Shown piece after piece: positions 743 to 15,353 of a DNA stretch of 64,000 bases; positions within the stretch are counted from its first letter, which is position 1, and each line of letters starts with the position of its first letter. Position numbers and translations under genes: made by a program. The notes below the pieces were generated by a model, which was given only the letters and a program-made list of their open reading frames with translations, was not told where the DNA came from and searched no databases. The stretch comes from Catellatospora methionotrophica (lineage in GTDB: Bacteria; Actinomycetota; Actinomycetes; Mycobacteriales; Micromonosporaceae): positions 310,001 to 374,000 of the forward strand of contig NZ_JAAOTJ010000001.1 in the NCBI RefSeq assembly GCF_011297335.1, in the 5' to 3' direction.

Positions 743-763
743 CAGCGGCCAGGGCAGCGTCGC

Positions 764-1612
764 TCACTTGCGGTTGTACCGGTGCATGGTCAGCGTGCCG
801 AACACGACCAGGCACACCGCGCTCGCGACCAGCACCCAGGTGATCGCCCCGGCGTCGGGTGCCCCGGCCATCACCGAGCGCACCGCCGCGACCAGCAGCG
901 TGATCGGGTTGACGTCCACGAACGCCTGCAGCCAGCCGGGCATCGTGGTGGGCTGCACGAACACGTTGCTGAGGAAGGTCAGCGGGAACAGCACCAGCAT
1001 GCTGACGCCCATCACCGACTTCTCGCTGCGCAGGATGAGGCCGAACCAGGTCCAGATCCAGGAGAACGCGAACGAGAACACGACCAGCAGCCCGATCCCG
1101 GCGGCCACGCCCATGACGCCGCCGCCGGGGCGGAAGCCGAGCACCAGGCCGACGCCCATGATGACCAGCGCGGCCAGCACGTAACGCAGCAGGTCGCCGA
1201 GGATCATGCCGACGAGCGCGGCGGGCCGCCATACGGGCAGGGTGCGGAAGCGGTCGAAGACGCCCTTCTCGATGTCGGTGTTGAGGCCGACGCCGGTGTA
1301 CATCGTGATCATGACGACGCTGGTGACCATGATGCCTGGCAGCAGGTACTGCAGGTACTCGCGCGGCGAACCGGCCAGTGCGCCGCCGAACAGGTACGTG
1401 AACATCAGCGTCATGATGATCGGGAACATCGTGACGTCGAACAGCTGCTCGGGCACGTGCTTGATCTTCAGCATGGCGCGCCAGCCGAAGGTCAGCGACG
1501 CCGACAGCGGGCCGGGCCGCCGCGGCTTCTCGCCGGGCGCGAGCACCGCGGCGATGCTCTCCGCCGAGGGCGTGTACGCCGTGGACTCCGGTGCGACGGT
1601 CGTCGTGCTCAC
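764..1612 (-). CDS. ABC-2 type exporter permease (DrrB-like)
   Basis: Integral membrane subunit of a two-component drug/lipid-type exporter, 282 aa. A hydrophilic N-terminus of about 50 residues precedes about six hydrophobic segments, the ABC-2 permease plan. The motif '[17 protein letters not shown]' (near residue 115) matches the cytoplasmic coupling helix of DrrB-like permeases. The GTG start at 1612 is chosen because its GTGA overlaps the TGA of the upstream ATPase gene by 4 bp, a classic translational coupling. It acts in the plasma membrane with the ATPase encoded at 1609–2631. The substrate cannot be told from sequence; daunorubicin-type families export diverse hydrophobic compounds. 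Confidence 0.88.
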
Positions 1613-2631
1613 GCGGCCACCTCCGTGCCGGTAGCGGCCTTGGCGGCCTTGTCGGTCAGGGCCAGGAAGACCTCGTCGAGGCTGGGCTGGCCGAGGGAGA
1701 ACTCGTCGACGACGATGCCCGCCCCGGCCAGCTCGGCCAGCGCCCGGGAACCGGCCGCTGCGGCGTCCACGGCCGCGCCCGAGCCGCCGACGCGCGCGGT
1801 CAGCGCGACCGGATCGGCCTCCGGCTGCACGGTCGTGTCCAGCACCTTGGCCAGCAGGCGCTCGGCCTCCGGCCGCTGGGCCGCGTCGCGCAGCCGCAGG
1901 TGCACGGTGCCCGCCCCGATCGAGGACTTGAGCTGGCCCGGCGTGCCCTCGGCGATGACCCGGCCCTCGTCGATGACCGCGATCCGGCCCGCGAGCTGGT
2001 CGGCCTCGTCGAGGTACTGGGTGGTCAGCAGCACCGTGGTGCCCTGCGCCACCACCGCGCGGATGATCTCCCACACCTGGTTGCGGCTGCGCGGGTCCAG
2101 GCCCGTCGTCGGCTCGTCCAGGAACAGCAGGTCCGGGGTGTTCAGGATGCTGGCGGCGATGTCGATACGCCGCCGCATGCCGCCGGAGTACTTCTTCACC
2201 TGCCGGTCGGCGGCCTCGGTCAGCCCGAACGCGGCCAGCAGCTGCGCGGCGCGCTCGCGGGCGACCGGTCGGCGGTAGCCGAGCAGCCTGCCGAGCAGGA
2301 CCAGGTTCTCGGTGCCGGTCAGGTCCTCGTCGACGGAGGCGAACTGGCCGGTGAGGCTGACGCGGGTGCGTACCGCGTCGGCCTCGGTGCGCAGGTCGTG
2401 CCCGAACACCCGGGCCTGTCCCCCGTCCGGGCGCAGCAGCGTGGCCAGCATGCGCACCGCCGTGGTCTTGCCCGCCCCGTTGGGCCCGAGCAGGCCGTAC
2501 ACCGTCCCGGCGGGGACCGCCAGGTCGAGCCCGTCCACCGCCCGGGTCTTGCCGAACGTCTTGACCAGTCCGGAGGTCTCCACCGCCAGGCTGGTGCTGT
2601 TCACCGCCATCACATTCCTCTCGTCGCCCAC
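1609..2631 (-). CDS. ABC exporter ATP-binding subunit (DrrA-like)
   Basis: Cytoplasmic ATPase of the exporter whose membrane subunit follows immediately, 340 aa, the usual DrrA length. Walker A 'GPNGAGKTT' lies near residue 50, the signature 'YSGGMRRR' near 145 and Walker B '[16 protein letters not shown]' near 167, followed by the H-loop region '[17 protein letters not shown]'. A C-terminal region of about 100 residues after the nucleotide-binding domain is the DrrA-type extension. All catalytic motifs are intact. It is the first gene of a two-gene operon transcribed leftward and coupled by a 4-bp overlap. A resistance or self-protection role is typical of the family but there is no biosynthetic cluster in the window to point to a substrate. 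Confidence 0.92.
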
Positions 2632-2684
2632 GTCAGCGGCCGGGTCGCACGGTGCACCGACCCCGCCACCCGATAGGCGCCAGA

Positions 2685-2713
2685 CGCCCCGCCAGATCGG
2701 ATCTGGCGGGGCG
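2685..2713. terminator. Perfect 13-bp hairpin downstream of the GH43 gene
   Basis: Arms 2685–2697 and 2701–2713 (CGCCCCGCCAGAT and its exact complement) are separated by 3 nt; a further CAG/CTG pairing sits outside a one-base bulge. It lies 50 bp past the stop of the leftward GH43 gene and just before the ABC operon start. No U-tract follows on either strand. Confidence 0.6.
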
Positions 2714-2762
2714 CTGGAGCCGCCACCCGGTCAACCGAGCGCGGGCGGCGAGCGGAAACGGG

Positions 2763-4682
2763 TCAGCCGAACACGCGCAGCTCGTAGATGCGGGTGGCGA
2801 TGTCGGCGTTCTGGGCCGGGGTGCCGACGTTGAGGCGGACGTAGCGGCCGGTGACGTTCACGGGGTGGGTGCTGGTCGCCGCGGTGTTTGCGGTGACGTT
2901 GACGGCCTGCGTCCAGGTCACCCCGTCGGCCGATACCGCGATGGTGAAGGCCCTGGTGTTGAAGGTCGACGACTCCCCGCCGGCCTGGGCGTGGGCGACC
3001 TCGAACCGGTTGATGGCCCGCGTCGCGCCGAGGTCGACGCGCAGCCACGCCCCGGACACGGCCGAGCAGAACTTGTCGGCGTTGCCGCCGTTGACGGCGC
3101 CGTTCACGGCCTTCTCCGGGCCTTCGGACGCGGTGCACGGGGTGGTGCCGGTCGCCGGGCGGTTCAGCGCCAGGTTGGTCCCCGCGCCGACGGGCGGGCC
3201 GACCGCGACGTTGTCGAAGGCGGCAGCGGCGTTGAACACCCGGACGCCGGTCGCGCCGGTGCCGTAGGTGCCGTCCGTGACGCTGATCTTCGGCGTGGCC
3301 ATGTCGTCGACGTACACCTTGATCGATGATCCGATCGCGGTGACCCGCAGCCGGTAGGTCGTGCCGACGGCGACGGTCATGGCGGGGGCCGCCAGCTGGG
3401 TCCAGTTGTTGTTGACCCGGCCGAGCACGACCCGGCCCGCCGGGCTGATGCCCGCGTAGTAGCCGGTGTAGGCGTCGGCGCCGGTGCCCGCGTTGGTGAC
3501 CCGGAAGATCAGCCCGGCGTCGCCGCCGCCCGAGGTCACGGTCACGTCGGCGTCGTAGGTGAGGTCGCCGAAGTTGGTGTCCAGCAGCGCCTTGCCGCCC
3601 AGCGAGCTTCCGGCCGTGTACCGGCCGCCGGTGGCCGCGAAGGAGCCGCCGTAGGTGCGCCAGCCGTAGGCGTTGTTGTCGGCGAAGTTGTCGCGCACCC
3701 GCATGGTCACCGGGGCGATCGTGCCGTCGGCGTTGAAGACCATCCGGTCGTACGCGAGCTGCCGGTGGTTGCCGTCGGTCTCACTGAGCGGGCGGCGGTG
3801 GTAGACGATGTACCAGGTGTCGGTGCCCGGGACGTTGACCACCGAGTTGTGCCCGGAGCCGCGCGCCACGGCGGAGTCCTGCGCGAGCACCCGACCCAGC
3901 CGGGTGAACGGGCCCAGCGGCGAGTTCGCGATGGCGTACGCGACGGAGTAGTCGGGGCCGGTCCAGCCGCCCTCGGACCACATCAGGTAGTACTTTCCGT
4001 TGCGCTTGAACATCTGCGGGCCCTCGGTGTAGCCCGCGGGCGTGATCTCCTTGTAGACGCTGCCGTCGGGGTGCGTGCCGAGGCTGATCATGTCCGCGTT
4101 GAGCTTGACCACGTTCGCGTGGCCCCAGCCGCCGTAGTACAGGTAGGCCTGGCCGTCGTCGTCGATGAAGACGTCCTGGTCGATGGGCTGCGCCCCGTTC
4201 TGGAACTGGGCGATCAGCGGGCGGCCCAGCGCGTCGACGTACGGGCCCTGGGGCTGGCTCGCCACGGCCACGCCGATGCCGCCGAGGCTGCTGTTGTTCT
4301 GGATGTCGTTGGCCGCGAAGTACAGGTAGTACTTGCCGTTGCGCTGGATCGGCGCGGGCGCCCACATGGCGTACGCCGCCCAGGAGACGTTCGCCTTGGT
4401 CAGCACGTTGGCGTGTTTGGTCCAGTTGACGAGGTCGGTCGAGGAGAACGCGTCGAGGTAGGTCTGCTCGGCGTAGCTCTTCGACGTCGTCGGGAACACC
4501 CAGAAGCGGTCGCCGTAGACGACGGTGTCGGGATCGGCGTACCAGCCGTCGGCGAACGGGTTGCCCGCCTCGCTGGTGGTGTAGTCCGGCGGCGCGGCGG
4601 GGGCCGCGGGCGCGCCGAGCAGCATGCCGGCGAGGACGGCGAGCAGGGTGGTGACGGCGATGCGGCGGGGACGGTGGCCCAT
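2763..4682 (-). CDS. Secreted GH43-type glycosidase with laminin-G-like and F5/8 type C domains
   Basis: Predicted extracellular hemicellulose/arabinan-degrading enzyme, 639 aa. Residues 1–30 are a signal peptide (Arg cluster, hydrophobic core, 'APAA'). The five-bladed propeller GH43 domain follows (about 40–340): 'WYADPD' supplies the candidate base Asp50, 'DQDVFIDDDGQAYLYYGG' the pKa-tuning Asp and 'YTEGPQMFKRNGKYYLMW' the acid Glu. Next is a beta-sandwich region (about 345–500, 'RDNFADNNAYGWRTYGG') of the laminin-G/DUF1080 type. The C-terminus ('NLALNRPATG...' to 'IYELRVFG') is an F5/8 type C (CBM32-like) carbohydrate-binding domain. The ATG at 4682 is preceded by GAGGGAGA, better placed than the in-frame codon 42 bp upstream. 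GH43 substrate specificity (xyloside, arabinofuranoside or galactan) cannot be read from these motifs. Confidence 0.87.
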   Translation of the reverse strand: MGHRPRRIAVTTLLAVLAGMLLGAPAAPAAPPDYTTSEAGNPFADGWYADPDTVVYGDRFWVFPTTSKSYAEQTYLDAFSSTDLVNWTKHANVLTKANVSWAAYAMWAPAPIQRNGKYYLYFAANDIQNNSSLGGIGVAVASQPQGPYVDALGRPLIAQFQNGAQPIDQDVFIDDDGQAYLYYGGWGHANVVKLNADMISLGTHPDGSVYKEITPAGYTEGPQMFKRNGKYYLMWSEGGWTGPDYSVAYAIANSPLGPFTRLGRVLAQDSAVARGSGHNSVVNVPGTDTWYIVYHRRPLSETDGNHRQLAYDRMVFNADGTIAPVTMRVRDNFADNNAYGWRTYGGSFAATGGRYTAGSSLGGKALLDTNFGDLTYDADVTVTSGGGDAGLIFRVTNAGTGADAYTGYYAGISPAGRVVLGRVNNNWTQLAAPAMTVAVGTTYRLRVTAIGSSIKVYVDDMATPKISVTDGTYGTGATGVRVFNAAAAFDNVAVGPPVGAGTNLALNRPATGTTPCTASEGPEKAVNGAVNGGNADKFCSAVSGAWLRVDLGATRAINRFEVAHAQAGGESSTFNTRAFTIAVSADGVTWTQAVNVTANTAATSTHPVNVTGRYVRLNVGTPAQNADIATRIYELRVFG

Positions 4683-4931
4683 CGGCTCTCCCTCGGGGTC
4701 GGGTCGGCTTCGTTCACGTTCCATCTCGAATCAACGAAACCGAACACACGGGAACGTGGAAAGTGGCCGCCGTACCACCGGCTGACACTATACGTCGACA
4801 CATGCCGATGTGGCGATACAGCGAGCACTTCCCTGCGACACGGGCGAACCGGCGATTACACCGATGCCGACGGCGGGCCGCTGCTCCGATGCTCGTTGGC
4901 ACTACGGCACCGTCCCCACGAAGGGCTCCCC
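4683..4931. promoter_or_regulatory. Divergent intergenic region between GH43 and lipase genes
   Basis: These 249 bp must hold the promoters of both divergent secreted-enzyme genes. It is less GC-rich than its flanks. The only symmetry I see is a weak inverted repeat CACAT-GCCG-ATGTG at 4799–4812. No convincing LacI- or AraC-type operator was recognised. Confidence 0.3.
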
Positions 4932-5606
4932 ATGCGTATCCGCCAACGCCTCATCGCCGTCGGCGCGGCCCTGGTCGCCGCCGCGGCACTCGTGGTCGCC
5001 CCGGCCGCACCCGCGAACGCGGCGACCAGCACCCCGGTCATCTTCGTACACGGCTTCATCGGCAACAGCTCGAACTGGACGACCGCACTGTCGGTCTTCC
5101 GGGCCGGCGGCTTCACCCGCCTCTACACCTACGACTACAACTGGGCCGGGTCCAACCAGATCAGCGCGGCCGGGCTGCGCGACAAGGTGAACCAGGTCAA
5201 GGCGCAGACCGGCGCGTCGAAGGTCGCCATCGTCAACCACTCGATGGGCGGCCTGGTCACCCGCTGGTACCTGGAGGAGATGGGCGGCTCGGCCAACGTC
5301 AGCCACGTCGCGTCCATCGCGGGCGCGAACCACGGCACCACGTACGCCGGGGCATGCCTGATCAACGTCTCGTGCATCGAGATGTATCCGGGCTCGCTGT
5401 TCCTGCTCGACCTCGCCGACGGGGACGAGACGCCCGGCACCGCCAAGTACCGCACCTGGTACTCGGCCTGCGACGGCATCATCATCCCGTACACCAGCAC
5501 CCGGCTGGACGGGGCGACCAACACCAACGTGCTGTGCGAGACCCACCTCGGATTCCTCACCAACACCAGCGTGCTGACCCAGATCCGCGGCTTCATCGCG
5601 GCCTGA
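4932..5606 (+). CDS. Secreted lipase/esterase of the alpha/beta hydrolase fold
   Basis: Extracellular lipase, 224 aa, the small Streptomyces/Bacillus LipA-like size. The signal peptide covers residues 1–30 with cleavage after 'PANA'. The oxyanion strand 'VIFVHGF' is at 36–42. The nucleophile is Ser104 in 'NHSMGG', a G/A/N-x-S-x-G elbow typical of this family. The acid Asp is probably in 'SACDGIIIPYTS' and the catalytic His in 'CETHLGF'. Cys pairs in the mature protein fit an exported, disulfide-bonded enzyme. The ATG at 4932 has GAAGGG about 6–8 nt upstream. The gene is divergent from the GH43 gene and ends at a strong hairpin. Confidence 0.9.
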   Translation: MRIRQRLIAVGAALVAAAALVVAPAAPANAATSTPVIFVHGFIGNSSNWTTALSVFRAGGFTRLYTYDYNWAGSNQISAAGLRDKVNQVKAQTGASKVAIVNHSMGGLVTRWYLEEMGGSANVSHVASIAGANHGTTYAGACLINVSCIEMYPGSLFLLDLADGDETPGTAKYRTWYSACDGIIIPYTSTRLDGATNTNVLCETHLGFLTNTSVLTQIRGFIAA

Positions 5607-5616
5607 CCACCGGACA

Positions 5617-5649
5617 CGGCGCTCCCCGCAGCCCGGGCGGGGAGCGCCG
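5617..5649. terminator. 13-bp perfect hairpin between convergent lipase and TRYPCO1 genes
   Basis: Arms 5617–5629 (CGGCGCTCCCCGC) and 5637–5649 are exact complements with a 7-nt loop. It sits between the stop codons of two convergent genes (5606 and 5656), so it can terminate both. Confidence 0.75.
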
Positions 5650-5655
5650 CCGCGT

Positions 5656-6012
5656 CTACTCCCCCGCCTGCCGGGGCGCCGGAATCGGGCCGCGCTCCGG
5701 ACCTGACCACTCCATGGTGAGGGTCAGGTGCCCCTCGCTGGCCGCCTTGGCGATCACCACCCCGGACTCGGCCGTGATCTTGATGCCGATCTCGACGGTG
5801 AACTTGTCCGGCCGCCGGGGCAGCGAACCGATCTGGTCGGTCACCGTCTGGATCACCGGGCGCAGCCGGCTCATCATCGTCTGGAAGCTGTCGCGGGCGG
5901 TGGTGATGTGGTCGCCGACGCCCGCCGCGACCAGCTCGTCACGGTCGCCGTCACTCGGCTCGACCAGCAGTTGCGTGCCGTCCTCGAGGGTCACTTCGAT
6001 CAGCGGTTGCAT
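5656..6012 (-). CDS. TRYPCO1-domain protein (CU044_2847 family)
   Basis: Small cytoplasmic protein of 118 aa. It has an N-terminal 'LIEVTLEDGTQLLVEPS' beta-hairpin, a central helix 'DSFQTMMSRLRPVIQTVTDQI' and a C-terminal pair of strands 'FTVEIGIKITAESGVVIAKAASEGHLTLTMEW'. This is the pattern of the trypsin-co-occurring domain 1 family, described next to trypsin-like peptidases in predicted NTP-dependent conflict systems. It is the downstream gene of a leftward pair: only 2 bp separate its start (6012) from the stop of the trypsin–nSTAND gene (6015), so the two are almost certainly cotranscribed. Its biochemical role is unknown; partner, substrate or regulator of the peptidase module are all possible. 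Confidence 0.82.
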   Translation of the reverse strand: MQPLIEVTLEDGTQLLVEPSDGDRDELVAAGVGDHITTARDSFQTMMSRLRPVIQTVTDQIGSLPRRPDKFTVEIGIKITAESGVVIAKAASEGHLTLTMEWSGPERGPIPAPRQAGE

Positions 6013-6014
6013 GG

Positions 6015-9000
6015 TCAGCCTTTCCAGCCGGGGCAGAGGTCCTCGTCGTCGGGGTGGATGGCGGCATGCTCCCGCTCAGCCGCGGTCAGCCCACGCCCGA
6101 CGATGTCGCACAGGTGCTGCCGCCAGCCCTGCGGATCGAGGTCGAACCGCTGCACGCCGAACGCGGTGCCGCTGACCGTCAGCGTGGTGCCGGCGCCGTC
6201 GATGCTGCTGCGCTCCAGGCCCTGGAAGTCCCGCGACTTGGGCAGCACCAGTGTGGACAGCACCTTCGCCGTGCCGATCTCCCACACCCGGAACTGCTCG
6301 CCACTCTGCAGGTAGATCAGGCCGCCGCGCAGCGCGTGCATCCGGCAGCACGATTCGATCAGCGTGTTCTGCGGCGCGGTCACCGTCGACACCGGCTGGC
6401 CGAGCATGTCCACGACCCGGACCTGGCCGCGTTCGCCGAGCACCGCGATGAGGTCCCCGGCCGGATCGAACGCGACCTGGCGTACGCTCTGCAACCCGTC
6501 GACGGAGAACGCGCCCAGCCGCTCGCCGGTGTCGGCGTTCCACATCGCGATGTCCGCATCCGAGGTGTTCACCGCCAGCACCTGCCGGGCCGTGTCGTAC
6601 GCGCAGGTGCCGGTCTGCGACCGGGGATCGACGCCGTCGGCGACGGTCGGGGTGACCGGCTCCAGCGGGCGCAGGCTCGGATACTCCCAGCGCCGGATCA
6701 CGCTGCCGTTGAAGTGCACCAGCATGCTGTCCGTACGCACGATGCACGCCCAGCCGAACCCGGTCCCACCGGTCGGCGGCGGCAGGCCGGGGCTGGGCGG
6801 CGTGGCCAGCTCGTGCCGGACCCGGCTCGGGTCGGCCGGGTCGCGCAGCGACAGCCTGGTGTGGGAGTCGTCCGCGGTGAACAGGTAGCGGTCGTCGGCG
6901 ATCAGCACCCGCTCCTGGGCGGGCAGGTCCGCGGTGATCCTGCGGCCCGAGGCCAGGTCCCACAGCCGGACCGGACGAGCCGCCCGCGCCACGGCCAGCG
7001 GGCCGATCAGGTCGACCGGTTCCGCGTCGTAGGCGGTCAGGTCGGCGCCGAGCTGCGTGAGGCTGTCGCGCGCGACGTCGGCGAGCACCACACCACCGCC
7101 CCCGGCGTACGCCACCAGCCAGCCCCCGGCGTGCGGCACGGCGACCGGCACGACCCGGTCGCCGAAGTCCTGAACGCCCAGCGGCAGCGCCAGCGTGGTC
7201 GCCTCACCGGTGTCGGTGAGCACGACCTGGATACGCTGACTTCCGGCCGCGTCCACATCCCAGGGCATGGCGAGCATGACCTCGCCCGCCGGGTCGAACC
7301 CGAGCTGGTTGCCGAACGCGCCCAGGCACGACGTGGTGAGCTTCCCGGCCTCCCGCATACCGGGCAGGGCGTACAGGCGCATCGCCGTCCGGTTGGTGGA
7401 CTTCGGGCAGCGGACCAGCCGGGTGCCGTCCGGGCTGACGCCCACCACGTCCTCGGTGATCCTCTGTACGACGCGGCCGGTCTTGACGTCCCAGACCTCG
7501 GTGTCGTCGAACTCCCGTTTGACGAGCACGGTGCCGGCATCCGGACCGAACCAGGCGGCGGTCGCGCCGACCTGCGGCAGCTCGGTGTCGGTGTCGGTGC
7601 CCAGGTCCCAGATCACGGTCCGGACCGGGTCCTCCGGGCGGGGCTGCACGCTCAGCAGCAGCGCCTGCCCGGACGGGTCGAACCGCTCCAGCCTGACCTT
7701 GTAGGTGAACTTGCGGGTCAACCGCCGCCCGTCGGGCTGGACGGCCGTCACCGTGTCCGCGCCGACGAAGGCCAGCCGGGTGCCCGACCGGTCGGTGACG
7801 ACGCTCTGCGCCCGGTCCGCCAGCTGCTCGGCAACCGGCCGACCGGCACCGTCCAGCCGCCACCGGCGCAGGTCGCGGCCTGCCGTGAGCAGTGACGGAG
7901 GGTCGGACATGACCGCCATGCCCGTCACGTCGCCGGTGTCGGGCAGGATGCGCTTGACCTGGTTGAACTGTGCGTACACCTGGAAGAGGGCGCTGGTCGA
8001 CTCGGGCAGCACCTTGCTCTGGTAGGCCGTCAGCGCGGTCAGCGCCGCCTTGTCGGGATCGGTCGACAGATGCCGCGTCGCCTCGGCCGCCAGGTCGCGG
8101 GCGCTGAATTCCCGCACCTGCGCCTGCAACTCCGCGTTGGCATCCTGCAGGAAGTAGGCGGATACACCGGTCGCGACCAGCAGCATCACCAGGGCGGCGG
8201 CGGCCGAGCGCCAGGCCCAGGTGAACCGGCGGCTGCGCTGCCGGCTGGCCAGGATGAAGTCGCGGTCGGCCGGGGTGAGGTCGTCGCCGTTGGTACGCAG
8301 CCAGGTGCGGGCCGCCTCCAGCCGCGCGCCGCGCAGTGGCTCCTGCTGCTCGCGGCTGACCCGCAGGGTCTCGTACCACTGCCAGAACTCGGCCGACTCC
8401 CTGAGCCAGTCCTCCAGCCGCTGCCAGCGGCGGGTCAGCGCGTCGTGGGTCAGTTCGTAGGTGACCGCGCCGGTGTCGCGGTCCTGCGACGTGACGACGA
8501 GCCGGGCGGCGGCGAGTTCGCGCGCGACGGCCAGCATCGGCGGGGTCAGCTCCTGGGCGCGCACCGGGCGGCGCAGCGCGGTCCCGGCCGCGGTCGGCTG
8601 CACCAGCCGCAGCATCAGCGCGCGCACCGCGGGCAGCTCGGCCTGCGGGATCCGTTCCCGCAGCACCTCCTCGGCGTACCCGGCGATGACGCCGCCGACC
8701 CCGCCGAGCGTGTCGTACGTTTCGTGGGTCAGCACGTCGCCGGGCTCGGAACGCCACAGCCGTTCCAGCAGGAACTCGACCATCGGCAGCGCGCCCGCAG
8801 TCGCGCCCGCGTCGGTGAGGATGCGGTCGGCGAGGCGGGGCTCGGCCGCGCGGCCCGCTGCCGACAGCGGCCCCTCGACGGCCTCGCGCAGCCCGTCGCC
8901 GGTCAGCGGGGCCAGGTAGGTGATCGCGTGCGTCCATGCCGGACCGAGCTCGGACAGGGCCGCGGCCTGATCGAGGAAGTCCGAGCGCAGCGTGACGATG

Positions 9001-10118
9001 ACCCGTACGGTCCGGGTCGACTCCCACAGCGCCCGCAGCAGCGTGAACAGCTCCGTCGCCTGGGCCGGGTCGTGGCCGACCAGCTCCTCCAGTTGGTCGA
9101 CGATGACGATGAGCCGCTGCGCGTACGCCTGGTCCAGGGCCCGCACGACGAGGTCGCCGACGTGCCCGGCGCGCAGCGCGGCGGCGATGTCGGCGGTCGT
9201 GACACCGGGCAGGTCGAAGGCCTGCGACAGGGCACGGGTGAGCACGCCCTCGGCGGTGACCCCGGCGGCGACGCGCAGGCCGACGATCACCGCGGGCCGG
9301 GCCCGCAGCCGGGGCAGCACTCCGGCCGACAGCAGCGACGACTTGCCGGTGCCGGACGCCCCGTTGAGCACCGTGAACGGCTCCCGCCACACGGTCTCGG
9401 CCAGCTCGGCGGCTTCGGCCGAACGTCCGAAGTAGAGCGGCGCGTCCTGCTCGCGGAACGGCTCCAGGCCGCGGAACGGGCTGTCGTCCCAGCGGCCCGG
9501 CGGCTCCGCCCAGCCGGCCAGTTCGGGCAGCGCGGCGAGCAGCGCCGCAGCGGGCTGGGCGTACGCGGTCCGCCGCCCGGCCAGGGCCTCCGTCGCGACG
9601 ATCATGCCGGTGACGGACTGGCGCTGGTCGTCCCAGACCGGGCCGCCGCTGAAACCCTGCGTCGCCCAGAATCCGGCGTTGCGGTCGTCGTCGATCTGCA
9701 GCCAGCCCGAACCCTGCCGGCCGTGCATGGTGCCCATCGCCCAGACGCCGTCGGGATGGTGCTCGGGGAAGCCGAACATCCGGCAGTGGTGCCCCCACGC
9801 GTCGGGTTCGTCGACCAGGCGGACCGGCCGCACCCGCTCCGGTGCGGGGCCGGTCAGCCGCAGGACGGCGATGTCGGTCTCGCGCCGGGGCTGCCACAGC
9901 TCGATCACGGCCGTGCCCGTGGTGCCGGTGGCCAGGAAACGGACCTCTACCGCTGTGCCCACGCCAGTCTCGCCACCCGAGCGCGCGAACAGCTTGGTGA
10001 TGACGTGCGCGGCGGTGCAGACCAGGTCCGGCGCCGCCACGAAGCCCGCACCGATCGGATGGCCGTTCGGAACGTTGATCGAGACCATGCTCGCGTTCAG
10101 CCGTTCCTCGGCAGACAT
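6015..10118 (-). CDS. Trypsin-like protease–nSTAND1 ATPase–beta-propeller signalling protein
   Basis: Large predicted conflict/defence protein, 1,367 aa. Residues 1–200 are a trypsin-like protease with an intact triad: His38 ('CTAAHV'), Asp82 ('RETDIAVL') and Ser157 ('GFSGGP'). The entry to the ATPase is the nSTAND1 hallmark 'PFRGLEPFREQDAPLYFGR' (214–232), then Walker A 'GASGTGKSS' (253–261) and Walker B 'LIVIVDQLEE' (336–345). A winged-helix/helical region leads to one transmembrane helix at about 630–652, followed by the conserved-type linker 'DLAAEATRHLSTDPDKAAL'. The remaining 700 residues are WD40-like blades, probably two propellers. The ATG at 10118 is preferred because the protease fold begins at once; upstream codons are low-complexity. 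NTP-driven assembly with propellers as sensor and protease as effector is the family model, not shown here. Confidence 0.88.
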   Translation of the reverse strand: MSAEERLNASMVSINVPNGHPIGAGFVAAPDLVCTAAHVITKLFARSGGETGVGTAVEVRFLATGTTGTAVIELWQPRRETDIAVLRLTGPAPERVRPVRLVDEPDAWGHHCRMFGFPEHHPDGVWAMGTMHGRQGSGWLQIDDDRNAGFWATQGFSGGPVWDDQRQSVTGMIVATEALAGRRTAYAQPAAALLAALPELAGWAEPPGRWDDSPFRGLEPFREQDAPLYFGRSAEAAELAETVWREPFTVLNGASGTGKSSLLSAGVLPRLRARPAVIVGLRVAAGVTAEGVLTRALSQAFDLPGVTTADIAAALRAGHVGDLVVRALDQAYAQRLIVIVDQLEELVGHDPAQATELFTLLRALWESTRTVRVIVTLRSDFLDQAAALSELGPAWTHAITYLAPLTGDGLREAVEGPLSAAGRAAEPRLADRILTDAGATAGALPMVEFLLERLWRSEPGDVLTHETYDTLGGVGGVIAGYAEEVLRERIPQAELPAVRALMLRLVQPTAAGTALRRPVRAQELTPPMLAVARELAAARLVVTSQDRDTGAVTYELTHDALTRRWQRLEDWLRESAEFWQWYETLRVSREQQEPLRGARLEAARTWLRTNGDDLTPADRDFILASRQRSRRFTWAWRSAAAALVMLLVATGVSAYFLQDANAELQAQVREFSARDLAAEATRHLSTDPDKAALTALTAYQSKVLPESTSALFQVYAQFNQVKRILPDTGDVTGMAVMSDPPSLLTAGRDLRRWRLDGAGRPVAEQLADRAQSVVTDRSGTRLAFVGADTVTAVQPDGRRLTRKFTYKVRLERFDPSGQALLLSVQPRPEDPVRTVIWDLGTDTDTELPQVGATAAWFGPDAGTVLVKREFDDTEVWDVKTGRVVQRITEDVVGVSPDGTRLVRCPKSTNRTAMRLYALPGMREAGKLTTSCLGAFGNQLGFDPAGEVMLAMPWDVDAAGSQRIQVVLTDTGEATTLALPLGVQDFGDRVVPVAVPHAGGWLVAYAGGGGVVLADVARDSLTQLGADLTAYDAEPVDLIGPLAVARAARPVRLWDLASGRRITADLPAQERVLIADDRYLFTADDSHTRLSLRDPADPSRVRHELATPPSPGLPPPTGGTGFGWACIVRTDSMLVHFNGSVIRRWEYPSLRPLEPVTPTVADGVDPRSQTGTCAYDTARQVLAVNTSDADIAMWNADTGERLGAFSVDGLQSVRQVAFDPAGDLIAVLGERGQVRVVDMLGQPVSTVTAPQNTLIESCCRMHALRGGLIYLQSGEQFRVWEIGTAKVLSTLVLPKSRDFQGLERSSIDGAGTTLTVSGTAFGVQRFDLDPQGWRQHLCDIVGRGLTAAEREHAAIHPDDEDLCPGWKG

Positions 10119-10618
10119 CTTCTGCCCACGTCCTCTCCACACCGGTCGGCGCGGACAGGTCCGGCACGACGAAGCCTCCATATTAGAGGTCCGTCGCGTC
10201 GCGCGAGGGCCCGGCGAGCTGGTCCGCGCGGTCCTTGCGCCGTGTGCGCGACGGCGGGTTCGGCGACCGGGCAGGGCTGCCGTAAAGGCCACTGATGTTC
10301 GCCGGTGCGACCGCGTAGAGTCAAGGCCATCGTCTGGGTCCCCTGGCCGCTGCTGGCTTCTCCGCCGCCCACGCGCGACCCTTCGGTCACCGGCCACACC
10401 CCAGGCTGGCAGCCGCATTCTCCGACCCGCGGTCTTCGCGCGTCTCCACACGACCGGGCATCCGACCGTGCCCGCCTGAACGTCCGACGACGCCATGAAC
10501 CGCGAGCGCGACGCCCGCCAGCGCCGGGCCTCCTGACTTCGGTGGGCCGGCCTGCCCGCCGAAGGCCGGTGACCGTGCCGCCGTTCGCCCGCACACCCGA
10601 CGCGTCCGAAAGGTCGAC
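10119..10618. other. 500-bp non-coding gap between nSTAND gene and sigma remnant
   Basis: I see no gene here. All open frames across it are antisense or low-complexity shadows. The one AT-rich island is at 10178–10187, where the minus strand reads TAATAT (10185–10180), 62 bp before the nSTAND start, a possible -10 element without an obvious -35. The right half may hold the promoter of the sigma-like gene, or debris of its missing N-terminal coding sequence, but I could not recognise any. Confidence 0.4.
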
Positions 10619-11062
10619 ATGACCGCACGTCCCTCCCTCACCTCCCCCCTCCGGCCGGTCAAGGCCATCGACAGGTTCGACCTCGGGCGCGGCCTGCCCT
10701 TCGCCGGATTTGCCGTGCCCACCGTCATCGGCGAGATCCGGCGGCATTTCCGCGACACCACCTGGGAGGTCCGGGTGCCGCGCCGCGTGCAGGAGCTCTA
10801 TCGCGACCTGGCCGAAACGACCGAGGACCTGACCGTCGAACTGCGGCACATGCCGAGCACGGCCCAGCTCGCCGCGGTCGACAGCCGGATGAGGCTGCGC
10901 CAGCGGCTCGCGGAGCTGTCCCCACGGGACAGGCGCATCATCGCGCTGCGCTTCGACGACGAGCTGACCCAGACGCAGATCGCCACCGAGCCGGGCATGT
11001 CCCAGATGCACATCTCGCGGCTGCTGACCCGCTCGCTGGACCAGCTGCGGCAGGCGGCGTGA
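10619..11062 (+). pseudogene. Internally deleted SigB/SigF-family sigma factor
   Basis: 147 aa against the usual 250–280 for the family. Residues 14–51 ('KAIDRFD', 'FAVPTVIGEIRRHFRDTTW') are the end of region 2 of a SigB/SigF sigma factor, 52–82 ('VPRRVQELYRDLAETTEDLT') are region 3, and 98–147 ('LSPRDRRIIALRF', 'TQTQIATEPGMSQMHISRLL') are region 4 with its helix-turn-helix. Missing are the core-binding first ~60 residues and about 50 residues between regions 3 and 4, the junction being near 'TAQLAA'/'VDSRM'. The reading frame is intact with an AAAGG-like ribosome site, and its end is coupled to the next gene (GTGA overlap), so it may still be translated. It is either decay or a promoter-binding competitor lacking core binding. 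Confidence 0.72.
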
Positions 11063-11733
11063 CCGGCACCGAGGTACGCCCCGTCCTCGCCGACTTCGGT
11101 CAGCCTTCGCTACGCGGCCGCCTGCACGTGTACGCCTTCTACGCCGCCGTCGTCGGCGGCACCGTCATGGGCGGCCTCGCCGCCACCCGGCCGGGCGCGG
11201 CTCCGCTGGTCAGCACGTCGGTCTACAGCGTGACGGTATGCGCGCTGTTCGGCGTCAGCGCGTTGTACCACCGGCGGGTGTGGAGCCCGCAGGGCTACCG
11301 GACCATGCGGCGCCTCGACCACGCGATGATCTACGTCTTCATCGCCGGCACCTACACCCCGCTCTGCGTGCTGCTGCTCAGTCCCGCCAAGGCGACCGCG
11401 CTGCTGGCGACCGTCTGGACCGGGGCTCTCGCCGGGGCCGTGATCGCGAGCGTCTGGCCGCACGCGCCACGCTGGGTGTCGGCCCCGCTGTACCTGATCC
11501 TCGGCTGGGCGGCGGTGCTCGTGCTGCGCGACTTCCTGAACGCGGGCGGAGTGCCCACCCTGGTGCTGCTCGCGATCGGCGGCCTCGGGTACAGCGTCGG
11601 CGCGGTCCTGTTCGCACTGCGCCGCCCGAACCCCTGGCCCGGCGTGTTCGGCCATCACGAGTTCTTCCACGCCTGCACGGTGGTCGCCGCGGCCTGCCAC
11701 CACGCCGCCATCTACTTCGCCCTGTTCGCCTGA
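11059..11733 (+). CDS. Hemolysin III / PAQR-family membrane protein (TrhA-like)
   Basis: Seven-helix membrane protein of 224 aa, the family's usual length. The conserved metal-site motifs are present: 'SALYHRRVW' near residue 68, 'LDHAMIYVFIAGTYTP' near 92 and 'GHHEFFHACTVVAAACHHAAI' at 195–218, supplying the Ser/His/Asp ligands typical of PAQR-type proteins. Bacterial relatives (YqfA/TrhA) influence membrane fluidity and energetics; actual haemolysis is not a safe inference. Start is GTG at 11059, overlapping the stop of the truncated sigma gene by 4 bp, so the two are cotranscribed. It is followed by a hairpin that overlaps its own stop codon. Confidence 0.9.
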   Translation: MTGTEVRPVLADFGQPSLRGRLHVYAFYAAVVGGTVMGGLAATRPGAAPLVSTSVYSVTVCALFGVSALYHRRVWSPQGYRTMRRLDHAMIYVFIAGTYTPLCVLLLSPAKATALLATVWTGALAGAVIASVWPHAPRWVSAPLYLILGWAAVLVLRDFLNAGGVPTLVLLAIGGLGYSVGAVLFALRRPNPWPGVFGHHEFFHACTVVAAACHHAAIYFALFA

Positions 11734-11752
11734 CGGCGCGGGCCGCGCCGTC
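11732..11752. terminator. 10-bp hairpin overlapping the hemolysin III stop codon
   Basis: GACGGCGCGG at 11732–11741 pairs with 11743–11752 around one central base. It lies between convergent genes ending at 11733 and 11770, so it can act for both. Confidence 0.6.
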
Positions 11753-11769
11753 AGCCGCAGGCGGCGGAG

Positions 11770-12204
11770 TCAGGCCGGGTCGAGGACGAACACCGGGATC
11801 TCGCGGGTGACCTTGCGCTGGTAGTCGGCGTAGGTCGGGAACGCCTGGACCGCCCGGTCCCACCACACGCGGCGCTCGTCACCGGTGGCCAGCCGGACCG
11901 TGTACGCCCGGCGCACCGGGCCGTCCTGGAGCATGACGTCGGTGTGCGCGACGAGATTGTGGTACCAGTCGGGGTTGCTCGGCCGGCCGCCGACCGACGC
12001 GACCAGGGCGTAGCTGCCGTCGTGCTCGACCCGCATCAGCGGGGTCTTGCGGATCTTCCCGGACTTCGCGCCCCGCATCGTCACGACCACGACGGGCTTA
12101 CCCATGATCGTGGTGCCCTTCGTGCCCCCGCTGGACTCGTAGGCCTCGACCTGCTTGACGGACATGTCCCAGGTTCCGGGCACGTACTCCCCTGTCAGCT
12201 CCAT
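11770..12204 (-). CDS. Ddn-type nitroreductase / F420H2-dependent quinone reductase
   Basis: Small split-beta-barrel oxidoreductase of 144 aa. The sequence 'KPVVVVTMRGAKSGKIRKTPLMRVEHDGSYALVAS' (about 35–70) and 'NPDWYHNLVAHTDVMLQDG' (about 77–95) are the cofactor-binding core of the deazaflavin-dependent nitroreductase family (M. tuberculosis Ddn). It probably reduces quinones or similar substrates with F420H2 in the cytoplasm or at the membrane face. The C-terminal 'VPVFVLDP'-like ending is typical ('REIPVFVLDPA'). It is transcribed alone, convergent with hemolysin III and divergent from the molybdoenzyme gene 237 bp away. FMN-using members exist, so F420 use is inference. Confidence 0.87.
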   Translation of the reverse strand: MELTGEYVPGTWDMSVKQVEAYESSGGTKGTTIMGKPVVVVTMRGAKSGKIRKTPLMRVEHDGSYALVASVGGRPSNPDWYHNLVAHTDVMLQDGPVRRAYTVRLATGDERRVWWDRAVQAFPTYADYQRKVTREIPVFVLDPA

Positions 12205-12332
12205 TCGTCACACCTTAGGCGAACCGGCCGCCGGGTCGCGATCGGCGGCGACCGACTGCCAGGAGGCGTCGGCGGCCGGAGAGATGCCTGGCGGGCGGCG
12301 GTACGGCAGCGTTTGGCAGGACTGCGTCCGTT

Positions 12333-12360
12333 TTCACCATACAGTACATTAGATGGTGAA
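12333..12360. promoter_or_regulatory. 8-bp inverted repeat upstream of the YdeP-type oxidoreductase gene
   Basis: TTCACCAT at 12333–12340 and ATGGTGAA at 12353–12360 flank an AT-rich 12-nt spacer (ACAGTACATTAG). It ends 80 bp before the start at 12441 in the shared 5' region of two divergent genes. A regulator operator is likely; which protein binds is unknown. Confidence 0.4.
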
Positions 12361-12440
12361 TTCAGTCTTTCCTGAAGTCAGGTGTGCGTCGGCTGCGGCC
12401 CTGATCTGGTGGATAGGTCACCGCGAGGAAGGTCGAGCCC

Positions 12441-14798
12441 ATGGCACCGTCACCGGAACCCGCAGCAGACGCCGAGCAGCTGATGATGGGCGCCGTGCCC
12501 GGAGCCGCCGCGCTCGGGCGCGGGCCGGTCCCGGACGGCGACTACTCCCGGCACGAGTACCACCACCCGGCCGCGGGCTGGGGCGCGGCACGCAGCGTCG
12601 GCAAGGTGCTGCTGCGCTCCCCCGAACCGGTCGAGGGCGTGAAGGCGCTGCTGGTGATGAACCACGAGGACGGCGGTTTCGACTGCCCCGGCTGCGCCTG
12701 GCCCGACGACCCGACCGGGCTGCGCCTGGACATCTGCGAGAACGGCATCAAGCACGTCACGTGGGAGATGGCCCCGCCACGGGCCGACCGGCAGTTCTTC
12801 GCCGCGCACCCGGTCGCCGAGCTGATGAACTGGACCGACTACGACCTGGAGGCCGTGGGGCGGCTCGCCGAGCCGATGACCTACGACCCGGACACCGACC
12901 GCTACGTCCCGATCTCCTGGGAGGACGCGTACGCCATGGTCGGCACCACGCTGCGCGGCCTGGGCAGCCCGAACGAGGCGGCGTTCTACACCTCCGGGCG
13001 GCTGAGCAACGAGGCAACGTTCCTCTACCAGCTGTGGGTACGCGAGTTCGGCACGAACAACCTGCCCGACTGCTCGAACATGTGCCACGAGGCCAGCGGC
13101 CGGGCGCTGCAGGCAGCCATCGGCTCCGGCAAGGGCACCACCGACCTGGAGGACTGGGAGCAGGCCGACGCGATCTGGCTGATGGCCGACAACGCGGGCA
13201 GCAACGCGCCCCGCATGCTGACCTGGCTCGCCGAAGCCGACCGGCGCGGCGCGACCCTGGTGCACATCAACCCGCTGATCGAGGCCGCGTCGCGGCGCAC
13301 CATCGTGCCGCACGAACTCGTCGACATGGCCACCTTCCGCACCACCCGCACCGGGACCAGGAACGTGCAGGTCAACATCGGCGGCGACCTGGCCCTGTTG
13401 CGCGGGGTGGCCAAGGCCGTGTTCGAGGCCGCGGACGGCGACCCGACCGTGCTGGACCGGGAGTTCATCGACAGCCACACGTCCGGCTTCGAGGACTACC
13501 GGGCGGCCGTCGACGCCACGTCGTGGGCCGACATCGTGCGCGACTCCGGGATCACCGAGGTCGACATCCGGGCGCTGGCCGGGTCGTACATCGCCTCGCA
13601 GCGCGTCATCATCGCCTGGTGCCTCGGGCTGACCCAGCACGAGCACGGCGTCGACACGGTCCGCGAGATCGCCAACGTGCTGCTGCTGCGCGGCAACATC
13701 GGCCGCCCCGGCACCGGGCCGTCGCCGGTGCGCGGGCACAGCAACGTGCAGGGCAACCGCACCTGCGGCGTCAACCACCGGCCACCCAAGGCCTTCCTGG
13801 ACCGGCTGGCCCAGGCGTGCGGCATCGACCCGCCGCGCGAGCACGGCCTGGGCACGGTGGACGCGATCGAGGCGATGCGGCGCGGCGAGCTGAAGGTGTT
13901 CGTCGCGATGGGCGGCAACTTCGTGCTGGCCGCGCCCGACCTGCCGCGCACCTTCGAGGCGCTGCGCAACTGCGACCTGACCGTGCAGGTCAGCACGAAA
14001 CTGAACCGCAGCCACCTGGTACACGGGCGGCGCGCGCTGATCCTGCCCTGCCTGGGTCGGTCCGAACGCGACATACAGGCGGCCGGGGAGCAGGGCGTCA
14101 CCGTCGAGGACTCGATGGCGATGGTGCACATCTCGTTCGGGATGAAGGACCCGGTGTCGCCGCACCTGCGCTCGGAGTGCGCCATCCTCGGCGGGATGGC
14201 GCAGGCCACCCTGCCGGACAGCCGTACGCCGTGGCAGGACTACGTCGACGACTACGACCGGATCCGCGACATCATGTCCCGGGCGCTGGAGGGGTTCGAG
14301 GACTTCAACGCCCGCGCCCGCCGCCCGCACGGCTTCCGGCTCGACCAGCCCGCCCGCGAGCGGGTGTTCCTGACCCCGTCGGGCCGGGCGGAGTTCTGGA
14401 CCGGGCCGCTGCCCGACGACGTCGACCCCGGCGAGGGCCGCCTGACGTTGACGACGGTCCGCTCGCACGACCAGTTCAACACGACGATCTACTCCAATGA
14501 CGACCGTTACCGCGGCGTGAAGGGCCTGCGCACCATCATTTTCATGAACGCCGACGACATGCGGGCGCGCGGGCTGGCCGAGTTCGACCTGATCGACGTG
14601 ACCAGCTTCTCCCGCGACGGCTCGCAGCGCACCGTGTACGGCTACCGGGCCGTCGAGCATCCGATCCCGCCGGGCAACGCGGCCGGGTACATGCCGGAGC
14701 TGAACGTGCTGTGCGGGCTCGCCGACACCAGCACCCAGAGCGAGCAGCCGGTGACCAAGCACCTGGTCGTCGAGGTGACCAAGCAGGCGACCGCCTGA
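12441..14798 (+). CDS. FdhF/YdeP-family molybdopterin oxidoreductase
   Basis: Formate-dehydrogenase-like molybdoenzyme of 785 aa, matching the E. coli YdeP size. An N-terminal 'GGFDCPGCAWPDDPTG' CxxC segment (about 75–90) precedes the molybdopterin domains. 'DCSNMCHEASGRAL' (about 212–225) places a Cys-His where FdhF has Sec-His, so this is the cysteine form. 'LLLRGNIGRPGTGPSPVRGHSNVQG' (about 414–438) and the C-terminal dinucleotide-binding domain 'TTVRSHDQFNTTIYS' are family-typical. GAGGAAGG stands about 8 nt before ATG 12441. YdeP is linked to acid resistance in E. coli, but the substrate is unknown and no FdhD or electron-transfer subunit is encoded nearby. Confidence 0.9.
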   Translation: MAPSPEPAADAEQLMMGAVPGAAALGRGPVPDGDYSRHEYHHPAAGWGAARSVGKVLLRSPEPVEGVKALLVMNHEDGGFDCPGCAWPDDPTGLRLDICENGIKHVTWEMAPPRADRQFFAAHPVAELMNWTDYDLEAVGRLAEPMTYDPDTDRYVPISWEDAYAMVGTTLRGLGSPNEAAFYTSGRLSNEATFLYQLWVREFGTNNLPDCSNMCHEASGRALQAAIGSGKGTTDLEDWEQADAIWLMADNAGSNAPRMLTWLAEADRRGATLVHINPLIEAASRRTIVPHELVDMATFRTTRTGTRNVQVNIGGDLALLRGVAKAVFEAADGDPTVLDREFIDSHTSGFEDYRAAVDATSWADIVRDSGITEVDIRALAGSYIASQRVIIAWCLGLTQHEHGVDTVREIANVLLLRGNIGRPGTGPSPVRGHSNVQGNRTCGVNHRPPKAFLDRLAQACGIDPPREHGLGTVDAIEAMRRGELKVFVAMGGNFVLAAPDLPRTFEALRNCDLTVQVSTKLNRSHLVHGRRALILPCLGRSERDIQAAGEQGVTVEDSMAMVHISFGMKDPVSPHLRSECAILGGMAQATLPDSRTPWQDYVDDYDRIRDIMSRALEGFEDFNARARRPHGFRLDQPARERVFLTPSGRAEFWTGPLPDDVDPGEGRLTLTTVRSHDQFNTTIYSNDDRYRGVKGLRTIIFMNADDMRARGLAEFDLIDVTSFSRDGSQRTVYGYRAVEHPIPPGNAAGYMPELNVLCGLADTSTQSEQPVTKHLVVEVTKQATA

Positions 14799-14806
14799 CC
14801 TTCTCG

Positions 14807-15178
14807 TTACTGCGGAGAGCCGAACACGCCAGGGTTGCGGGCGGTCCAGTCGAACAGCGGCTGCAGGGCGTCCATCAGCTCGACGGCACGCGCCGTGGGC
14901 GAGTACAGGATCTGCACCGGGGTGGTGGGGATGACCTGCCGCTCGATGAGTCCGTGCTGTTCGAGTTCGCGCAGGCGCTGGGTCAGGACGCGGTCGGAGA
15001 TGCCGTCGGCGAACGCGCGGTAGTGCCCGAACCGGCGTGCGCCCCGCCGCCCGGCCAGCATGATCATGCCCACCCAGCGGCGGCCCAGCAGCTCCAGGAC
15101 CGGCTGGAAGCCGCGGCACGCCGCGTCGCTGGCGCCATGGTGGTCGGGCACGTACGCGGAGAGCCTGGCAGTCGTCAC
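14807..15178 (-). CDS. HxlR-family winged-helix regulator
   Basis: Transcription factor of 123 aa. The HxlR signature runs from 'CRGFQPVLELLGRRWVGMIM' (about 21–40) through 'RFGHYRAFADGISDRVLTQRLRELEQHGLIERQ' (about 49–81), which holds the recognition helix, to the wing 'PVQILYSPTARAVELMDAL'. HxlR proteins bind short palindromes as dimers and often sense electrophiles or redox changes; a Cys (Cys21) precedes the helix. The gene ends 8 bp from the convergent molybdoenzyme gene. Start is GTG 15178, which has no clear ribosome site; a perfect short palindrome touches it, suggesting autoregulation. An internal start further downstream is possible. Confidence 0.88.
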   Translation of the reverse strand: MTTARLSAYVPDHHGASDAACRGFQPVLELLGRRWVGMIMLAGRRGARRFGHYRAFADGISDRVLTQRLRELEQHGLIERQVIPTTPVQILYSPTARAVELMDALQPLFDWTARNPGVFGSPQ

Positions 15179-15192
15179 TTACCGATAGTAAG
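15178..15192. promoter_or_regulatory. HxlR operator candidate (CTTAC-N5-GTAAG)
   Basis: A perfect 5-bp inverted repeat around CGATA, of the TTAC...GTAA type bound by HxlR-family proteins, immediately upstream of and overlapping the first base of the HxlR gene's start codon. Confidence 0.5.
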
Positions 15193-15279
15193 CAGCTAAC
15201 CGGGGTCTGCCCACCCACCCGAGCCACGCCAGGCTGGATCGGTTCGCCCGCACCGTGGACCGGGCTGACGCAGCGGCTC

Positions 15280-15310
15280 TTGACCTGAACCTGACTTGAA
15301 CTTCTAGGTT
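15280..15310 (+). promoter_or_regulatory. MerR-type promoter with 19-bp spacer for the VOC gene
   Basis: TTGACC (15280–15285) and TAGGTT (15305–15310) are separated by exactly 19 bp. A dyad AACCT-N13-AGGTT (15288–15310) lies within the spacer and over the -10. Over-long spacers with internal dyads are the hallmark of MerR/SoxR-activated promoters. No MerR gene is in the window, so the regulator acts in trans. Confidence 0.55.
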
Positions 15311-15353
15311 GCGTTAAGGGCCGCGACAGCCGCTGCCCACCGAGGAGGCACCG

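Follow-up and report, generated by a model that had tools for sequence, protein, structure and literature searches.

A trypsin-nSTAND1-propeller protein of Catellatospora methionotrophica as a putative outside-in receptor with an exchangeable sensor and a Trypco1 partner

The stretch of DNA analyzed here (the window, 64,000 nucleotides; positions 310,001 to 374,000 of contig NZ_JAAOTJ010000001.1 of Catellatospora methionotrophica) carries a pair of adjacent genes, which encode a protein with a trypsin-like domain, an nSTAND1 ATPase, one membrane helix and a putative propeller region (P0001) and a small Trypco1 protein (P0002). We propose, with a probability of roughly 0.58, that the pair constitutes a one-protein outside-in receptor with a cytosolic Trypco1 partner, in which the sensor is exchanged between alleles at the membrane helix and the protease becomes activated. 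Comparative sequence analysis supports its domain make-up, the conserved protease triad, the topology signatures, the link of Trypco1 with trypsins and the mosaic nature of the sensor.

According to this proposal, the N-terminal trypsin and nSTAND1 domains would reside in the cytoplasm, one helix would cross the membrane, and the C-terminal propeller region, braced by disulfides, would be exposed outside. We infer that the propeller would bind a cell-surface ligand, upon which the ATP-dependent STAND module would cluster and switch on the protease. The latter would then act on a cytosolic target, with Trypco1 serving as a cofactor, adaptor or substrate. Recombination at the membrane helix would let strains trade sensor alleles, leaving the protease, ATPase and Trypco1 unchanged.

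Domain architecture of the gene pair

Both genes are encoded on the minus strand and only 2 bp separate the receptor gene from the Trypco1 gene downstream (Table 1). An earlier note, made from the sequence without database searches, had described an intact His38/Asp82/Ser157 triad, Walker A and B motifs, a single membrane helix and a neighboring TRYPCO1 gene at this distance; all of these were located in P0001 or, for the gene, borne out by translation and a Pfam match above the cut-off. The nSTAND1 match (PF20703, residues 214-589) scores 285.5 bits against a cut-off of 27.1 and, together with the two Walker motifs, places P0001 in this family. Residues 23-172 match Trypsin_2 (E 2.2e-10) and Trypsin (E 1.5e-9), both above cut-off, and H38, D82 and S157 are unchanged across all 15 aligned trypsin-nSTAND1 proteins. 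P0002, in turn, adjoins a trypsin gene and belongs to Trypco1 (PF19493; 87.1 bits against a cut-off of 24.6, E 1.3e-24); in NCBIfam, it scores 75.6 bits for the CU044_2847 family (cut-off 23). The nearest full-length relatives of P0001 among the matches listed are four Catellatospora proteins of 72-83% identity, while P0002 is 92-94% identical to the Trypco1 proteins of four other Catellatospora loci.

The propeller is the weakest assignment of P0001. All Pfam propeller models fall below their cut-offs (best 6.7e-9, residues 1134-1248), and P0001 alone gives weak propeller matches in PDB (best E 0.002). When a profile was built from 15 relatives, its positions 738-912 and 1134-1353 aligned with WD40 propellers of known structure (E to 9.6e-36). 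Hence, the long propeller region of the earlier note holds for the family profile, whereas for P0001 by itself it is represented by these low-scoring matches. Six cysteines fall within the propeller region (Cys 904, 931, 1125, 1172, 1257, and 1258).

Table 1. Features of the receptor-Trypco1 gene pair (positions refer to the window).
Feature	Position	Strand	Basis
Trypsin-nSTAND1-TM (transmembrane helix)-propeller protein P0001, 1,367 aa from ATG	6015..10118	-	ORF (open reading frame) translation, Pfam, motif scan
Trypsin-like protease domain, residues 1-200, triad H38/D82/S157	9519..10118	-	Pfam, motif scan, alignment of 15 proteins
nSTAND1 ATPase, residues 214-589	8352..9479	-	Pfam, E 1.2e-84
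Walker A GASGTGKS, residues 253-260	9339..9362	-	Motif scan
Walker B VIVDQLEE, residues 338-345	9084..9107	-	Motif scan
Single membrane helix (residues 639-657) following a basic stretch	8148..8204	-	Hydrophobicity scan
Predicted extracytoplasmic propeller region (residues 741-1330), probably with two propellers	6129..7898	-	Weak for P0001 alone
C-terminal motif with Cys pair 1337/1362	6033..6110	-	Comparison of relatives
Putative variable sensor cassette	6015..8147	-	DNA identity to three loci with other allele classes 64-77% in the 300-bp bins 6001-8100; ~90% on both sides
Trypco1 protein P0002, 118 aa	5656..6012	-	ORF translation, Pfam

Membrane topology

Topology was assessed in two sets of proteins. 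The first comprised 109 listed relatives with a Walker A pattern, and a helix lies 300-560 residues beyond Walker A in 106 of them. The second was drawn from 80 named loci, the best 80 of 562 (Streptomyces, Nostoc, Chloroflexota, and others), which yielded 81 nSTAND1 ORFs of at least 700 amino acids, 77 of them with a helix. Lysine and arginine are in excess in the 20 residues before the helix, relative to the 20 after it, in 101/106 proteins of the first set (one reverse, four equal) and in 71/77 of the second (one reverse, five equal). The number of cysteines after the helix is even in 97/106 proteins of the first set, 14 of these having none, while before the helix it is even in 55/106. When this set was reduced at 60% identity to 86 representatives, the respective values were 78/86 and 43/86; in the second set they were 67/77 (18 with none) and 35/77. 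As a control, we counted the cysteines located after residue 640 in 20 Trypco1-linked trypsin-WD40 proteins of soluble classes and obtained 9 even and 11 odd numbers, or 6 even and 8 odd after removal of six proteins with a hydrophobic stretch elsewhere. In exported mycobacterial proteins, some 64% of which contain disulfides, an even cysteine count has served as an indication of such bonds (PMC12421883).

The C-terminal Cys pair follows the helix. Among 63 trypsin-nSTAND1 proteins, it was present in 52 of the 58 with a helix and in none of the five without. Only two of these five, P0010 and P0013, are clean relatives, and both keep the C-terminal motif without its cysteines; the other three belong to another STAND class (L078), carry an unrelated C-terminal domain (L075) or contain masked letters (L140). 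Since the charge and cysteine signs agree, the trypsin domain and nSTAND1 are most likely cytosolic and the propeller extracytoplasmic. The signatures of a single-pass outside-in receptor, i.e., one transmembrane helix with the enzyme inside and the sensor outside, are thus borne out by charge and cysteine statistics, and the suggestion of the earlier note that the membrane separates the sensor from the protease gains support from both signs and their controls.

The sensor as an exchangeable cassette

In the five Catellatospora proteins, mean pairwise identity falls from 89% in the trypsin domain and 94% in nSTAND1 to 59-63% in the propellers, while all eight sensor cysteines are unchanged. 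For the six pairs of four loci, the ratio of nonsynonymous to synonymous substitution rates (dN/dS) rises from 0.13-0.17 ahead of the helix to 0.48-0.73 beyond it. Compared at the DNA level, the downstream flank is mostly 84-97% identical (34% in bin 5101-5400 against L049), the Trypco1 bin 91%, the helix bin 78-84% and bins 8401-9900 86-95%, while in bins 6001-8100 identity to three loci of other sensor classes amounts to 64-77%; values above 10200 are not meaningful because the upstream genes differ in other strains. C. citrea, which shares the sensor class of the window, retains 75-90% identity in the sensor.

The mosaic is most apparent between strain NPDC049111 and C. aurea, whose proteins are 98-99% identical in trypsin and ATPase and 57-58% in the propellers. 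The NPDC049111 sensor resembles those of the window and of C. citrea, and the C. aurea sensor that of C. coxensis. Informative sites among four proteins are distributed 15:0 between the two groupings up to residue 620 and 2:129 after residue 660, with 3 sites for a third grouping. We place the predicted recombination breakpoint at the membrane helix, between residues 620 and 661. Judged from these comparisons, the sensor behaves as a replaceable allelic cassette, with protease, ATPase and Trypco1 remaining constant. In Nostoc, a milder form was observed among trypsin-nSTAND1-TM proteins with Trypco1 (L125, L138, and L142), which share 95-96% identity in the ATPase part and 69-79% in the sensor.

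Trypco1 and its association with trypsins

Trypco1 genes were found in 95 of the 150 Micromonosporaceae genomes surveyed, and 80 of the listed matches were taken further (mostly the best-scoring, with some on short contigs passed over). A trypsin ORF, detected with our own profile, is present in 67 of these 80 loci and lies on the same strand within 300 bp in 57; distance and strand were used here, as orientation is unreliable where the Trypco1 frame ran upstream over its neighbor (L049, L051). Among the best 80 of 562 named nSTAND1 loci, Trypco1 occurs within 1 kb of 25/40 trypsin-nSTAND1 genes and of 0/41 other nSTAND1 genes (Fisher 8e-11). Trypco1 therefore appears to belong with the protease, whatever the sensor chassis, and the pairing of TRYPCO1 with peptidases put forward in the earlier note is upheld. 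Its account of the name was right as to co-occurrence and can be refined, as Trypco1/2 were named from VMAP (MoxR-vWA) ternary systems (PMC7159879). The name nSTAND1 comes from a 2021 paper (PMC8195603).

According to Pfam searches with 27 proteins of the 80 Trypco1 loci, trypsin is fused not only to nSTAND1, but also to NA-iREase3-WD40, VMAP, NACHT-HEAT, NB-ARC-TPR, CHAT, TPR, HEAT, and SBP-vWA. The Trypco1 tree (108 rows, few columns, many forks unresolved) requires 29 partner changes by parsimony, with partner labels assigned by hand, and on this sequence basis the Trypco1 cassette is seen to move between chassis. Several loci illustrate the range of neighbors. In L037 and L042, Trypco1 stands beside a trypsin-SBP-vWA protein (by Pfam in L037, by likeness in L042); in L038, L044, and L055, it neighbors solute-binding proteins and the trypsin ORF is some 6 kb distant; and in L111 of another Catellatospora genome (G051), the adjoining trypsin protein contains an ATPase resembling nSTAND5 (below cut-off) and ends in a NUDIX domain. 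The genome of the window itself harbors a second Trypco1 system (L039, G000:C1:1028750-1047040), whose partner is a trypsin-STAND-WD40 protein of 1,396 aa with a STAND domain that is NACHT-like by eye. This system, at G000:C1:1037750, is soluble, with no membrane helix after the ATPase.

P0002 has no hydrophobic helix (best 19-residue window 1.09), and only 2 of 120 Trypco1 family members reach 1.7; the protein is therefore predicted to reside in the cytoplasm with the protease. Sequence searches of PDB with Trypco1 returned no significant relative (best E 0.1). In AVAST and Hachiman, the neighbor gene of the trypsin-like protease encodes a pro-nuclease that is cut by the protease (PMC12799240). 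By analogy, Trypco1 could be a protease substrate, but a role as cofactor or adaptor is as likely, because it has no known enzyme domain. A mirror-tree comparison gave r 0.74 between Trypco1 and trypsin distances over 86 pairs (0/2000 permutations); contact between Trypco1 and trypsin was dropped as its explanation, since shared descent accounts for most of the correlation.

Genomic context

Orthologues of the receptor are present in 5 of 11 Catellatospora genomes, while the flanking GH43 gene is found in all 11. The flanks of the pair are conserved on either side among the window, L048, L049, L050, and L051, except for two genes at window positions 10619-11733. These are a sigma-70-type factor gene (10619-11059) and an adjoining HlyIII gene, which are located divergently upstream of the receptor; no match to either was found at the other four loci, and both are present in G125. 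In G125 (L196), one deletion removed Trypco1 and the receptor except for its first ~20 codons, while the upstream region, both flanks and the sigma-factor and HlyIII genes remain; the joint loss of both genes in a single event favors the proposed receptor-partner pair. In C. citrea (L050, G129), the orthologue is split in two frames (residues 1-427 and 424-1367) beside an intact Trypco1 gene, which reflects either decay or a sequencing error.

The neighbors scanned (window 14 to 15824) encode GH43, a class 2 lipase, an ABC transporter, the sigma factor, HlyIII, an F420H2-dependent reductase, a molybdopterin oxidoreductase, an HxlR regulator, a glyoxalase, and proteins of no known kind; by name, none of them is a known defence gene. 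A candidate next gene at 5138-5710 on the minus strand is probably not a gene, the opposite strand holding the class 2 lipase. As for mobile elements, distant relatives occur in 117 matching plasmid records of 72,556, 81 of the 117 from Streptomyces, and 3 of 50,697 phage records match in and around the ATPase. Three unannotated phage records from fecal samples (H9-H11; MT835531, MT836049, and MT836527) contain nSTAND1-like stretches of 30-32% identity.

The earlier note had interpreted the pair as a conflict system sensing invaders and had suggested a survey for enrichment in defence islands. Using PADLOC at 1e-10, we found 22 families in 140 flank genes of Trypco1 loci and 50 in 140 comparison genes, with 1-2 members in each family listed. 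The tally is by family, not by gene, and 25 of the 50 families are displayed for the comparison set, which consists of 20 stretches picked by hand, not at random, in 20 of the same genomes. The genes sampled were 140 of 242 in the flanks and 140 of 235 in the comparison regions, genes longer than 700 aa and loci without trypsin by profile having been dropped. The flanks thus display no more anti-phage profiles than the comparison regions, and the defence-island interpretation was set aside. Nor do invader sensing and the defence label find support so far in the setting of the pair, which in the five Catellatospora genomes that carry it sits at a constant position between genes for metabolism, transport and regulation. 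Conversely, an association of TRYPCO1 with housekeeping genes only, which the note considered decisive against its view, was not seen, the trypsin partners being fused to many predicted-conflict NTPases.

Alternative explanations

Several observations weigh against the proposed receptor. Its topology relies on statistics over proteins that are related, and not independent, so that the counts overstate independence. Within 42 nSTAND1 pairs, the distances of Trypco1 correlate slightly more closely with those of nSTAND1 (r 0.79) than with those of trypsin (r 0.74), with the propeller at 0.69. By profile, 15/40 trypsin-nSTAND1 genes are without Trypco1 in reach, some of them near contig ends, which is why Trypco1 may not be obligatory, and 13/80 Trypco1 loci are without trypsin, although Pfam later found Trypsin_2 in two of these (L101 and L102). 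For the 15 trypsin-nSTAND1 loci lacking Trypco1, small ORFs nearby were considered as candidates for a Trypco2 partner. In two Catellatospora loci, L060 (G071) and L062 (G051), Trypco1 is located near a patatin-like phospholipase and a small gene of no known kind, and no trypsin was found nearby; the phospholipase is a possible other effector for Trypco1. Finally, several non-trypsin nSTAND1 pairs display no identity drop or no faster sensor, and the sensor dN/dS of Catellatospora remains below 1. The latter would also suit a divergence of the sensor by relaxed constraint rather than exchange. The P0003/P0005 mosaic, with each sensor matching that of other strains, the switch in informative sites and the eight invariant cysteines make this scarcely probable. 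We consider it nearly as doubtful that the hydrophobic segment is a tether only and that the propeller remains cytoplasmic. WD40 propellers are mostly cytosolic, P0001 has no N-terminal helix at threshold (best window 1.57 in the first 100 residues), and 700 residues would have to traverse the membrane after a long cytosolic part; yet, a tether leaves the charge bias, the cysteine parity with its controls and the joint absence of helix and Cys pair without explanation.

As for function, ordinary envelope or nutrient signaling, with PknD and ToxR as receptor models and the trypsin domain performing regulated proteolysis of a transcription or anti-sigma factor, is a serious rival because relatives with the same ATPase carry, among the matches listed, SARP and XRE DNA-binding domains, Ser/Thr kinases and cyclases. 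The membrane helix in 106 of the 109 relatives, the stable location of the locus and the divergent sigma-factor gene upstream are in agreement with such a role. However, this sigma-factor gene has no match beside the receptor in four other Catellatospora loci and occurs in the receptor-less G125, and the replacement of whole sensor alleles between close strains, as well as the G125 loss, would be unusual for housekeeping signaling; overall, we hold plain signaling to be possible, though short of an even chance. Somewhat less probable, in our estimation, is an anti-phage or anti-invader suicide switch, whereby infection would activate the protease, leading to death or arrest, with Trypco1 as adaptor or proteolytically released effector. 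It is at odds with the fixed place of the pair among non-defence genes and with the PADLOC comparison, and an outward sensor would argue against recognition of phage proteins inside the cell, where known Avs proteins perform their sensing. In its favor are the fast-evolving sensor, the Trypco1-trypsin pairs on VMAP, NACHT, NB-ARC, and CHAT chassis, the occurrence of Trypco1 and trypsins in predicted conflict systems (PMC7159879) and the precedent of Avs1, in which the protease partner cleaves and activates a neighboring pro-nuclease during phage infection (PMC12799240).

Under the outside-in receptor proposal, allele exchange of the sensor at a fixed locus leads us to favor a biotic ligand (phage, competitor or kin) over an abiotic one, so that the invader of the earlier note would be one candidate among these three. 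In a bolder and rather improbable extension, nSTAND1-TM-propeller proteins would form a large class of transmembrane NLR-like receptors, whose trypsin/Trypco1 version at this fixed locus would serve kin or hyphal-contact allorecognition in mycelial bacteria, with strains told apart by whole-sensor alleles swapped at the helix, by analogy with the STAND-WD40 incompatibility genes of filamentous fungi.

Comparison with known systems

Bacterial STAND NTPases and eukaryotic NLRs are usually regarded as monitoring the inside of the cell. If sensing outside and signaling inside through one helix proves true for this family, many annotated "conflict" proteins of the kinase, TIR, caspase, SARP and trypsin versions would have to be re-read as cell-surface receptors and the search for ligands would shift to the cell surface. 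Natural swaps at the membrane helix would mark a position that accepts chimeras, so that ligands could be mapped directly by exchanging domains in a laboratory actinomycete. The protein of this soil actinobacterium is suggestive of a bacterial receptor whose sensor is traded among strains. Our literature search, which covered titles and abstract openings with subscription literature mostly outside it, retrieved no description of the outward topology or the sensor exchange. PknD has the same layout of a cytosolic enzyme, one transmembrane helix and an extracellular propeller, and the WD40 chain of PkwA (5yzv) is among the PDB matches of our 15-relative profile. The likeness to PknD/PkwA-type receptor kinases is limited to layout and propeller, a STAND ATPase and a protease replacing the kinase here. 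Sensors that face outward or are diversified were put forward earlier for other systems, namely EACC1 and GAP1-N2 (PMC7159879) and targets of diversity-generating retroelements (DGR; PMC10907252).

Like the VMAP (MoxR-vWA) ternary systems, the pair combines a Trypco1 gene of the same Pfam family with a trypsin fused to an NTP-dependent system (PMC7159879), but its chassis is a membrane-spanning nSTAND1-propeller; no VMAP match was found in P0001 and no MoxR or vWA gene among the neighbors scanned. With the nSTAND1/EACC1 caspase systems it shares an nSTAND1 ATPase with an exchangeable N-terminal effector (PMC7159879; PMC8195603). Membrane association has been noted for EACC1 systems, including transmembrane helices followed by an extracellular PBP domain (PMC7159879). 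Here, in contrast, trypsin and Trypco1 replace caspase and EACC1, neither of which was matched in the pair or the scanned neighbors, and neither an outward propeller supported by cysteines nor a swapping of sensors is described for those systems in the passages of PMC7159879 and PMC8195603 examined.

DGR-diversified sensors occur in nSTAND1 and NACHT systems, some of which are linked to trypsin, EAD8 or Trypco1/2, and one NACHT target is predicted to face the periplasm (PMC10907252). A fast-changing sensor is common to these and to P0001; there, a C-lectin sensor is mutated by the retroelement (PMC10907252), whereas here the propeller appears to be replaced as a block by recombination. No retroelement was present among 10 scanned neighbors, and no search was aimed at retroelements. 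AVAST type 1 (Avs1a/Avs1b) is also a STAND system that includes a trypsin-like protease and whose partner is encoded by a separate adjoining gene (PMC12799240). Yet, the partner is here Trypco1 and not a metallo-beta-lactamase (MBL) nuclease, and a helix and a propeller are present; the Avs1b model NF041810 scored 19.4 bits against a cut-off of 1500, and there was no MBL gene among the scanned neighbors. Finally, the fungal STAND-WD40 incompatibility genes resemble the pair in combining a STAND NTPase and a polymorphic WD40 sensor in a filamentous organism (PMC2873952; PMC12222747). In fungi, the NLRs are located inside the cell and owe their variation to the WD repeats, while the sensor of the Catellatospora protein is predicted to be outside and to be swapped as a block.

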